Source of the DNA: Opitutaceae bacterium EW11
GTDB lineage: Bacteria; Verrucomicrobiota; Verrucomicrobiia; Opitutales; Opitutaceae
DNA: 64,000 nt
Reading direction: 5' to 3'
NCBI GenBank assembly: GCA_003054665.1
Contig: QAYY01000001.1
Span: 1,043,501-1,107,500, forward strand
Shown: positions 4,491 through 59,306 of the stretch, in pieces
Numbering within the stretch: the first letter of the stretch is position 1
Layout: each line of letters starts with the position of its first letter
Translations under genes and position numbers: made by a program
The notes under the pieces: generated by a model
What the model saw: the letters and a program-made list of their open reading frames with translations, nothing else
Told to the model about the DNA's origin: nothing
Databases searched by the model: none

Positions 4491-4636
4491 AAAGGCTGAA
4501 GGCTGAAGGGCTGAAAGGCTGAAGGAGGCGGCCGTCAATGGCCCGGCGAAAAACCGGCCGGCAGGAGAATCGTTGTCTGTTTCCGCTGGATACATCTTTC
4601 AGCCCGTCAGTCTTTCGGACTTTCAGTCCTTTTCAT
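4491..4636. repeat. Family B inverted-repeat element between motA and motB
   Basis: Left arm 4491-4526 is a run of GGCTGAAGG-type units; the right arm 4596-4636 carries the complementary wording (TTTCAGCCCGTCAGTCTTTC and further CTTTCAGTCC). Together they can form a long imperfect stem around a GC-rich centre (GGCCCGG...CCGGCC near 4540-4562). The right arm reaches into the motA stop codon. A second copy lies at 58050-58260. Confidence 0.75.
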
Positions 4637-13050: not shown

Positions 13051-13087
13051 GCGGAGAAGTTGGTAGTTAGTAATTGGAAATTGGTGA
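13051..13087. repeat. Half element of repeat family A between fliP and fliQ
   Basis: Words GAAGTTGGTAGTTAG and TAATTGGAAATTGGTGACAG match the left arm of the family A elements at 37891, 39550, 41921 and 42889. No right arm is seen here. Confidence 0.55.
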
Positions 13088-39526: not shown

Positions 39527-39549
39527 GGCCAGCGCGCCACGGGCGCGCA

Positions 39550-39680
39550 GGAGAAGTTGGAAGTTGGAATCTCGAAGTTGAGACGCCGTCGGCGCGGCCC
39601 GCTTCTCCGCGTTCTGAGAAGAAAAAGCGCAGGCACCGCGCCTGCGCCCAACTTCAAACTACCAAATTCCAACTACTCCG
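39550..39680. repeat. Family A inverted-repeat element between argJ and argC
   Basis: Left arm 39551-39585 (GAAGTTGGAAGTTGG, then CTCGAAGTTG); right arm 39649-39679 (CAACTTCAAACTACC, then AATTCCAACTACTCC). The argC terminator hairpin sits inside it. Confidence 0.8.
39622..39647 (-). terminator. Rho-independent terminator of argC
   Basis: Minus strand: GCGCAGGC stem, 5-nt loop, GCCTGCGC followed by TTTTTC. It lies 82 bp after the argC stop codon, nested in the family A element. Confidence 0.85.
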
Positions 39681-41920: not shown

Positions 41921-42083
41921 GGGAAGCTGGAAGTTGGTAAATCGAAGTTTGGCTCAGCCCCGCGATGGAACGTTGAGCACGAGGCCGCTGAAGCGGGGCG
42001 GGCAGGTTCTGGACGGCAAGCAAAAGGCCCCGGGGAAACTCCTCCGGGGCCCAGCTTCAAAGCTCTAAATTCCAACTTCTCCG
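41921..42083. repeat. Family A inverted-repeat element after the porin gene
   Basis: Left arm 41921-41952 (GAAGCTGGAAGTTGG, then AATCGAAGTTTGG); right arm 42050-42082 (CCCAGCTTCAAAGCTC, then AATTCCAACTTCTCC). The terminator of the porin gene lies between the arms, the same nesting as at argC. Confidence 0.8.
42022..42051 (-). terminator. Rho-independent terminator of the TorF-family porin gene
   Basis: Minus strand: GGCCCCGG stem, 10-nt loop, CCGGGGCC followed by TTTTGC. It lies 63 bp after the stop codon. Confidence 0.85.
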
Positions 42084-42113
42084 CAGCGCCGGTGGCGTTG
42101 CGGCCGCGCTGCG

Positions 42114-57431: not shown

Positions 57432-58046
57432 ATGAAAGCCCTCCCGCTTCTCTGCACCCTCTGCCTCGCGGCTCCTCTGGTCCGCGCCGACTCCCTCTGG
57501 ACGACTCCGACGAACAACGAGCGTTCGATGTACTCGGACAAGAAGGCGTCCCGCACGGGCGACATCCTGACCGTGGTCGTCTCGGAAACCGCGGCGACGC
57601 AGTCCTCGCAGTCGAAGAAGTCGAACAATGATTCGTCGATCGACGCGGGCATCAGCCAGTTCCTGTTTCCCCCCTCGGTCAGCGGCTTCGGCACGAAGGG
57701 CGGCGCCCTGCCCGCGACGAAACTCGCGGCAAAGAGCGACTTTTCCGGCGGCGGCTCGGTGAACAACACCCAGAGCCTCACCGCCCGCGCCGCCGTGCTC
57801 GTGACCGACGTGCTCCCGAACGGGAACCTCGTGATCGAGGGCGTCCGCGTCGTCATCTTCTCCGGCGAAACCCAATTCGTCGTCCTGCACGGACTCGTGC
57901 GGCCCGACGACATCACCTCCGCGAACACGATCGCCTCGAGCAACATCGCCGACGTGCGGATCGAGTTCATCAGCGAAGGCTCGCTCACCGACGCCCAAAA
58001 GAAGGGCTGGCTGACCAAACTCTACGACAAGCTGCGGCCGTACTGA
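57432..58046 (+). CDS. flgH: Flagellar L-ring protein FlgH
   Basis: 204 residues from the ATG at 57432. Conserved core GDILTVVVSETAATQSSQSKKSN and LVTDVLPNGNLVIEGVRVVIFSGETQFVVLHGLVRPDDI, C-terminus GWLTKLYDKLRPY. FlgH is normally a lipoprotein, but the signal here (LPLLCTLCLAAPLVRADSLW) has no acceptable lipobox and looks like a signal peptidase I substrate (LVRA/DSLW). Forms the outer-membrane bushing. Confidence 0.93.
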   Translation: MKALPLLCTLCLAAPLVRADSLWTTPTNNERSMYSDKKASRTGDILTVVVSETAATQSSQSKKSNNDSSIDAGISQFLFPPSVSGFGTKGGALPATKLAAKSDFSGGGSVNNTQSLTARAAVLVTDVLPNGNLVIEGVRVVIFSGETQFVVLHGLVRPDDITSANTIASSNIADVRIEFISEGSLTDAQKKGWLTKLYDKLRPY

Positions 58047-58049
58047 GAA

Positions 58050-58260
58050 TCAAAGGCTGAAGGACTGAAGGGCTGAAAAGCTGATAAAGAGCACCCCATG
58101 TATCCACAATTCCAGTTTTCCATTCTGTTTGTTCGGAACTCGGCGTCGCGTCCAAGCCCGCTCAGCCGTTGTTCGGCCTTTCGGCGCGTCAGCCCTCCTG
58201 CCCTGCGCCTTCTTGCACTTTTCTTCAGCCTTTCGGTCCTTCAGCTCTTCAGCCCTTCCC
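58050..58260. repeat. Family B inverted-repeat element, right arm inside flgI
   Basis: Left arm 58050-58084 (AAAGGCTGAAGGACTGAAGG and GCTGAAAAGCTGA) in the flgH-flgI gap; right arm about 58160-58260 with TTCAGCCTTTCGGTCC and TTCAGCTCTTCAGCCC. The right arm is within the flgI coding sequence and encodes its signal peptide. Same wording as 4491-4636. Confidence 0.8.
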
Positions 58261-59306
58261 TGTTCGCCGCGCGCGTGAAGGATCTCACCCTCGTCGAGGG
58301 CGACCGCGACAATCAGCTGGTCGGCTACGGACTGGTGGTCGGTCTGGCCGGCGACGGCGACAGCAACGCCATCGCCACCATGCGCACGGTCGCCAACGCC
58401 CTCCAGCGCCAGGGGCTGATCGTCCCCTCCGACCAGATCAAGGCGAAGAACGCCGCGGTCGTGATGGTCACCGCCGACATCGGCGCCTTCCTCAAGCCGG
58501 GTGCGCGGATCGACGTGGTGGTCGCCTCGATGGGCGACGCCAAGAGCCTCCAGGGCGGCGTGCTCCTCCAGACTCCTCTGATGGGTGCCGACGGACGCAT
58601 CTACGCGGTTTCCCAGGGTCCGATCGCCGTCGGCGGTTTTCTCGGCGGCTCGGGCGGGCCCGGGGGCGCCACCGTCCAGAAGAATCACCCGACCGTCGGA
58701 TCGATCTCCAACGGCGCCATCGTCGAGCGCGAGATTCCCGCCACCATCGTCCACGACGGCACGGTCACGCTCCAGCTGCACAACCCGGACTTCACCTCCG
58801 CGTCCCGCATGGCCCAGGAGATCAACAAGACCTTCGCCGGCGCCGCCACGGCCAAAGACGCCGCGACGGTCACGGTCGCGATTCCCCCTTACTTCAACGG
58901 CAAGTCCATCGACTTCGTGGCCGAGCTCGGCGCGATCGAGGTCACGCCCGACAGCCTGGCGCGCATCGTGATCAACGAGCGCACCGGCACGATCGTCGCC
59001 ACCTCGACGGTCAGGATCTCGCAGGTCGCGATCAGCCACGGCGCCCTGACCATCACCGTCACCTCGAACCTCGCGGTTTCTCAGCCCAATCCCCTGAGCA
59101 AGACCGGCGACACGGTGGTCACGCCCAGCACCCAGACCAACGTCACGGAGATCAAGGGCGGCTTCAAGGTGGTGAACGACGCGCCCACCATCGATCGGCT
59201 CGCCGCAGGGCTCAACGCCCTGGGGGTTTCCACCCGCGAGATGATGTCCATTTTCCAGACGCTCAAGCGCTCCGGCGCCCTCCAAGCCGAACTCGTCATC
59301 AACTAA
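58098..59306 (+). CDS. flgI: Flagellar P-ring protein FlgI
   Basis: 402 residues. Mature part from about residue 57 (ARVKDLTLVEGDRDNQLVGYGLVVGLAGDGD) is typical, with PLMGADGRIYAVSQGPIAVGGF and the C-terminus STREMMSIFQTLKRSGALQAELVIN. The first 56 residues are odd: a charged, Ser/Arg/Pro-rich stretch, then a hydrophobic core (LRLLALFFSLSVLQLF) ending SPSLFAA. That core is translated from a family B repeat. There is no alternative start giving a shorter signal, so the repeat seems to supply the export signal for the P-ring. Confidence 0.93.
   Translation: MYPQFQFSILFVRNSASRPSPLSRCSAFRRVSPPALRLLALFFSLSVLQLFSPSLFAARVKDLTLVEGDRDNQLVGYGLVVGLAGDGDSNAIATMRTVANALQRQGLIVPSDQIKAKNAAVVMVTADIGAFLKPGARIDVVVASMGDAKSLQGGVLLQTPLMGADGRIYAVSQGPIAVGGFLGGSGGPGGATVQKNHPTVGSISNGAIVEREIPATIVHDGTVTLQLHNPDFTSASRMAQEINKTFAGAATAKDAATVTVAIPPYFNGKSIDFVAELGAIEVTPDSLARIVINERTGTIVATSTVRISQVAISHGALTITVTSNLAVSQPNPLSKTGDTVVTPSTQTNVTEIKGGFKVVNDAPTIDRLAAGLNALGVSTREMMSIFQTLKRSGALQAELVIN

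Follow-up and report, generated by a model that had tools for sequence, protein, structure and literature searches.

The STRR heptamers of cyanobacteria are short, interspersed tandem repeats of intergenic DNA. Repeats can also be translated, and in the accessible parts of the respective reports, two precedents are the RU-2/YPAL repeat of Yersinia, which lies within the predicted signal peptide of YPO1552 (PMC2759123, PMC2229807), and the Rickettsia palindromic elements, palindromic repeats that are translated in frame within genes for conserved proteins (PMC2229807). The accessible text on the TAACTGA heptamers of the Beggiatoaceae describes tandem units located a few nucleotides ahead of start codons, some of which are translated, mostly at protein ends, with a patchy distribution over taxa (PMC4679880). 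Tandem repeats known from a methanotrophic verrucomicrobium, considered as a further parallel, are irrelevant here, to go by the accessible part of that paper (PMC4210602). A literature search, in which few subscription journals were covered, found no paper on an octamer repeat in Opitutaceae or on a repeat-made FlgI signal.

Here, we describe a repeat arm at the start of flgI in Opitutaceae bacterium EW11 (genome size 6.4 Mb), within a stretch of 64,000 nucleotides that we refer to as the window. The arm is part of a family repeat, shares its reading frame with the one start that is usable, and has the mature protein downstream. From the sequence, we consider it probable that a repeat arm was exapted as the FlgI signal peptide in this genome. 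The origin of a signal peptide is usually erased by rapid divergence; here, it appears to be traceable.

The octamer repeat family

The repeat unit is an octamer, (TTCAGCCC)n, interspersed through the EW11 genome in arms mostly of about four octamers. At up to three mismatches, its family consensus has 118 matches in this genome, compared to none for the reversed pattern, and 67 arms (median length 35 nt) were found in 33 of the 35 EW11 stretches taken around listed sites. Among 200 sampled genomes of the family, 63 have at least one octamer match. The open strand of the octamer is translated as FSPSALQP or FSLSAFQP in every frame, and the other strand has TGA in every frame; being open one way and stopped the other is a property of about 19% of all 8-mers, and thus not rare, but it allows an arm to be read toward a downstream gene in any frame.

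Neighboring arms are oriented −,+ in 26 of 27 pairs in EW11, 29 of 31 in an Oleiharenicola MAG (G249) and 13 of 15 in a third genome (G002), with spacers of 21–373 nt in EW11 and 12–379 nt in G249, and with many single arms besides; the 76 arms of G002 form only 15 adjacent pairs. Of 26 arm pairs in EW11 and 29 in G249, 15 and 22, respectively, have co-directional genes to either side, and the median distances in these two genomes are 4.5 and −1 nt to the upstream stop and 9 and 7 nt to the start, respectively. The arms are usually untranslated: in the stretches from these genomes, an ATG that begins an open, coding-like frame lies 0–25 nt past the outer end of 73 arms (21 in EW11, 26 in G249 and 26 in G002, a few of them spurious, including the one at FlgI of G249). 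The genes behind these arms, named by eye, include those for ATP-synthase subunits, phosphoglycerate kinase, threonyl-tRNA synthetase and Nuo subunits.

We note several further occurrences. One EW11 site (L186, C4:212900-221800) has arms at 1988, 4400, 5379 and 6889 in an apparent ATP-synthase operon (by eye), where an octamer arm pair surrounds each of four junctions and the right arms lie 3–10 nt ahead of an ATG. Long perfect octamer arrays occur in EW11 at L175 (1977-2087), L184 (2093-2251) and L195 (1990-2026); one array flanks an N run and another is found where a contig ends, so that the assembly is interrupted by the repeat. The window holds a second octamer element (Table 1), the left arm of which is 18 nt ahead of the ATG of a minus-strand, MotB-like gene (named by eye), as well as distant inverted copies of another degenerate short repeat (AGTTGGAA-like) at 13051-13084, 39535-39580 and 42052-42097.

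The flgH–flgI junction and the predicted FlgI signal peptide

The gene order at this locus is flgA, flgH, flgI, and then a gene with a weak FlgJ match below the cut-off. The flgI product matches PF02119 (E 1.7e-123, 412 bits against a cut-off of 25.3, domain from residue 59) and NF003676 (387 bits, above the curated cut-off of 300), and the flgH product, queried without its first 11 residues, matches NCBIfam FlgH models with a best E of 7e-45, under the curated cut-off. The junction runs from the flgH stop through the left arm, which begins five bases past it, the ATG, the loop, the degenerate arm, a linker and the outer arm to LFA/ARVKDL (Table 1), and its left and right arms are complementary at 91% over 22 nt and 94% over 18 nt.

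Table 1. Positions of genes and octamer arms in the window
Feature	Position	Strand	Remarks
Second octamer element, left arm	4499..4525	−	score 27
Second octamer element, right arm	4596..4631	+	score 21
flgH	57432..58046	+	upstream of left arm; stop 58044-58046; start MKALPLL taken from the ORF
Left arm of octamer element at flgI	58052..58084	−	GGCTGAAGG strand on +, TTCAGCC strand on −; arm score 27; pairs with right arm
flgI, P-ring protein	58098..59306	+	ATG start inside element loop; PF02119, NF003676
Inner right arm, degenerate	58172..58204	+	residues 26 to about 36; arm score 15; 78% like outer arm region
Outer right arm	58223..58258	+	residues 43-54 (FSLSVLQLFSPS), second half of signal hydrophobic core; arm score 27
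Likely cleavage region A57/A58, before RVKDL	58266..58271	+	inferred from relatives ending in A before S/A-R-V/I-K-D

The first-pass annotation had proposed a repeat arm inside flgI, and this identification stands beyond chance: the score of the right arm is 27, with a maximum of 10 among 1296 control windows taken from within flgI genes, and chance likeness is rejected on these interior-gene controls together with the reversed pattern. It had drawn the arm as a single unit at 58160-58262, encoding residues of about 22-55 including the hydrophobic core. The repeat is present in this span, but as two arm copies, and residues 36-42 (LRLLALF), which form the linker between them, contain no recognizable arm sequence, so that the outer arm accounts for no more than the latter half of the hydrophobic core as quoted. 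The further assertion that no other start would give an export signal is correct for ATG, GTG and TTG, as the ATG at 58098 is the sole such codon in frame upstream of the conserved RVKDL, but an in-frame CTG at 58203 would yield a short signal, with the outer arm still included. Self-periodicity at the locus is 9.5, below the control 99th percentile of 13, and would alone have missed it, such that detection of the arm relies on the family consensus; this measure is a weak generic detector, with 2 of 97 FlgI signal windows above the 99.9th control percentile and 7 of 97 above the 99th.

FlgI of E. coli is made as a Sec precursor. For the EW11 protein, we infer translation from 58098, Sec export, and cleavage near A57, and the features of a predicted Sec signal are present by simple measures: a positive n-region (Arg within the first 37 residues), a hydrophobic core (peak of 2.52), and a small residue at −1 (A57 before A58). 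The n-region is long, at about 35 residues. The Kyte-Doolittle hydrophobic peaks of ten repeat-built FlgI signals (eight loci with arm scores of at least 14, plus L155 and L071) lie between 1.85 and 2.95, compared to a median of 2.66 for 88 others (p 0.30). Bare arm peptides are weakly hydrophobic on this scale (0.57–1.11). In the five FlgI arms that share a register, the proline codon of the outer arm has become leucine in four (L061, which is the locus of this window, L121, L147 and L138) and serine in one (L091), and the 209 corresponding triplets from 61 other EW11 arms comprise 156 proline, 41 serine and 2 leucine codons. This pattern fits a tuning of the arm toward a better hydrophobic core; common descent may account for part of it, because three of the four leucine cases share one codon.

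Relatives, other proteins, and a second repeat

We examined 110 FlgI loci, of which L120 and L149 were dropped for having less than 90 nt upstream, leaving 108 windows with 11 duplicate proteins. The arm score reaches at least 14 in eight of the 108 (L061, L091, L138, L147, L121, L112, L134 and L068), all in genomes with at least six octamer matches. Leaving out duplicates and six loci without an octamer count, carriers make up 8 of 16 repeat-rich genomes and 0 of 75 others (p 1.5e-7, with related carriers counted separately; L068 and L134 are closely related, so that the cases are not all independent), and eight repeat-rich genomes have no FlgI window scoring at least 14. A further locus, L155, scores 12, below this threshold, and is repeat-built in appearance (by eye).

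The distance from the end of the arm to the conserved Val codon is exactly 16 nt in L061, L091, L138, L147 and L121. Together with L071, these five make up the six carriers of the shared layout, which are scattered on a tree of 99 FlgI proteins built by a quick method, where they require six changes, at least five of which are forced by starred branches. An old origin with many losses, transfer, or repeated gain could each account for this history, and the shared register and n-region would favor an old origin with losses, or transfer, over repeated gain. We note that, at the flgH–flgI junction of Geminisphaera colitermitum TAV2 (L134), an upstream ATG is enclosed by a further inverted repeat (ATTAGGAATTAAAAATTA / CTAATTCCTAATTTC), in addition to the octamer in the signal peptide.

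The first-pass annotation had suggested comparison with relatives lacking the repeat, most of which, judged by eye, carry different hydrophobic regions ahead of the same mature FlgI. It had also named, as evidence against co-option, a close relative with the same signal peptide and no nearby arm. L071 comes close to being such a case, as it has a similar signal peptide in a genome with zero octamer matches, but a degraded arm (score 13) remains there. This locus shares ATGAACGCACGGATGC and the n-region with L138, and the degraded arm together with the shared n-region leads us to read it as a relic, an eroded copy; taken alone, it may reflect the reverse order of events. The overall proposal that a non-coding repeat has turned into a Sec signal finds support in these comparisons, with octamer FlgI signals confined to octamer-rich genomes and a repeat family that is mostly untranslated.

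The flgI locus is one case of many. In the Oleiharenicola MAG (L121, G249), flgA, identified by ChapFlgA, has a copy of the flgI layout, with a left arm past the stop codon of its upstream neighbor (flgG by eye), an ATG, the shared non-repeat n-region and right arms, and the flgA and flgI of this MAG thus carry paralogous start-plus-signal cassettes. Arms similar to TTCAGCTTTTCAG lie in the N-termini of FlgA, FlgH and FlgI of Geminisphaera (L134) and of FlgH and FlgI of G005 (L068). The N-terminal arms of G002 precede SBP_bac_5, FG-GAP, VWA, metallophosphatase and DUF3857/transglutaminase domains, with the export call for the VWA and metallophosphatase proteins partly circular because it was judged from the N-terminus alone, and others are found ahead of a beta-helix in G122 and of a TonB plug in G065. 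Predicted signal peptides that contain arms thus include those of FlgA, FlgH, a solute-binding protein and a TonB receptor, among others. G249 has an alpha-amylase with an arm that sits before the hydrophobic stretch. There are also counter-examples in G002, namely E1_dh and epimerase proteins, apparently cytosolic, with in-frame arms near the N-terminus, and L318, which has a Tat-like N-terminus with the arm outside it. Frames with in-frame arms at L274, L280, L293, L299 and L309, as well as antisense-looking frames, were set aside or not counted as genes.

A profile of the cassette signals gave matches in 39 of 200 genomes at an E of 0.05; its strong matches are FlgI, and many of the weak ones are other copies of the repeat, some containing stops. 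By eye, arms are seemingly in frame within non-exported genes at two G002 loci, L309 (1086-1119, AroE-like) and L299 (1087-1122, glycosyltransferase-like). A weak, sub-threshold match to TcdB-midN in the FG-GAP protein L296 was put down to beta-propeller likeness.

A second repeat family is found at the same gene. In G004, which holds the FlgI nearest to that of EW11 (77%), and in G292 (L165), the FlgI signal is made of (TTGGTCA)n, read LVIGHWS. The heptamer has 183 matches in G004 (30 for the reversed control) and 368 in G292 (control 0), with none in EW11, and the scores of the FlgI windows are 28 and 20, respectively, compared to a control maximum of 9 in 1100. L161 has a different 7-nt repeat in its n-region, which scores above the 99th and below the 99.9th control percentile.

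Taken across EW11 and several of its relatives, the recruitment of a non-coding repeat as an export signal seems to have occurred repeatedly. We lean slightly toward a broader reading, in which the Opitutaceae draw Sec signals time and again from a standing supply of short tandem repeats between genes, different genomes use TTCAGCCC or TTGGTCA for the same gene, and a cassette can be copied within an operon. On this reading, a repeat whose unit length is not a multiple of three, with a stop on one strand and with the other strand open, partly hydrophobic and directed toward the start, gives the same stop-free peptide in every frame, and any copy adjoining an exported gene could thus become its signal, which would be the reason one repeat class can supply signals.

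Alternative readings and known systems

The co-option of the arm would have proceeded from an inverted-octamer element located at the flgH–flgI junction, as at many co-directional junctions in EW11, with a right arm that is stop-free in any frame and gives a peptide rich in serine, leucine and phenylalanine. At flgI, this arm occupies the place of the relatives' own hydrophobic region, and, with initiation at the loop ATG, the leucine-rich linker and the arm would form the Sec signal, the repeat probably having displaced an older signal rather than vice versa.

The alternative that survives best, which we nevertheless regard as improbable, is that the element acts chiefly as RNA, with a hairpin from the flgH stop past the flgI start coupling translation and signal coding as a by-product. 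The junction does fold into a long hairpin with its arms paired (z −3.44, with 0 of 200 shuffles as stable), and the co-directional flanks and −,+ order of the arm pairs described above are in line with such a role. Translation of flgH and flgI may be coupled by this predicted hairpin. However, complementarity to an arm's own partner is no higher than across elements (p 0.78 and 1.0). Selection keeping the arms complementary within an element is thus unsupported, and the pairing may follow from the shared consensus. Furthermore, several signal-peptide arms have no partner in view (for example L237, L238 and L253), and pairs are few among the arms of G002. An RNA role is, in any case, compatible with signal function.

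Somewhat less probable still, and in our view distinctly unlikely, is that FlgI initiates downstream of an untranslated arm, as do the genes behind the 73 arms counted above. A candidate codon exists in the GTG at 58275, 16 nt past the outer arm, but it encodes the Val of the RVKD/RIKD motif that is common to relatives, which have a hydrophobic stretch before it, and initiation there would abolish any signal; starting at the CTG at 58203, on the other hand, would still translate the outer arm. Finally, signal peptides are compositionally biased and self-periodicity at flgI is unremarkable, yet it is very hard to credit that this is an ordinary signal in which the TTC, CTT and AGC codons used by Leu/Phe-rich signals resemble the repeat by chance or convergence, given the arm score relative to its controls, the inverted partner arm after the flgH stop, the restriction of carriers to repeat-rich genomes and, as the 1296 control windows came from mature gene sequence, the finding that none of the 75 FlgI signals from repeat-poor genomes reaches 14.

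We return to exaptation of the arm as our preferred reading. As the repeat at flgI is intact in some relatives, eroded in another (L071) and absent from others, the conversion of intergenic sequence into an export signal becomes testable in these genomes, and annotators should be warned that intergenic repeats in them may be coding at exported genes.

Of the known systems, bacterial MITE and RPE elements resemble the octamer element in having terminal inverted repeats (here, the −,+ arms), but the octamer element has no single unit size of ∼100–200 bp, its spacers vary, and many arms are alone. The TAACTGA heptamers, as far as the accessible text goes (PMC4679880), are similarly a short, tandem, interspersed unit just before starts (octamer arm-to-start medians of 9 and 7 nt), and the octamer likewise has one strand without stops in any frame and another with stops in every frame. 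In that text, however, it is the stop-bearing strand of the heptamer that points toward the start codon and direct arrays dominate, in contrast to the octamer, with its open strand TTCAGCCC toward the start, its inverted pairs and its signal peptides, and the phrase “signal peptide” has 0 occurrences there.

The Rickettsia palindromic elements are given in the accessible part of their description as units of 105–146 bp inside genes (PMC2229807), unlike the short octamer arms, which have variable spacers, are mostly extragenic and, in the cases found, are translated chiefly at exported N-termini. The Yersinia RU-2/YPAL case, in the parts of its reports accessible to us, concerns one hypothetical protein and a 168-bp element (PMC2759123, PMC2229807), whereas the present case involves octamer arms in a well-known ring protein, extends to several protein families and lineages, and includes a second repeat and a copied cassette. 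Translated repeats have precedents in Rickettsia and, within a predicted signal peptide, in Yersinia, and what differs here is its recurrence over genes and lineages, its conserved exported targets, the second repeat and the copied cassette.
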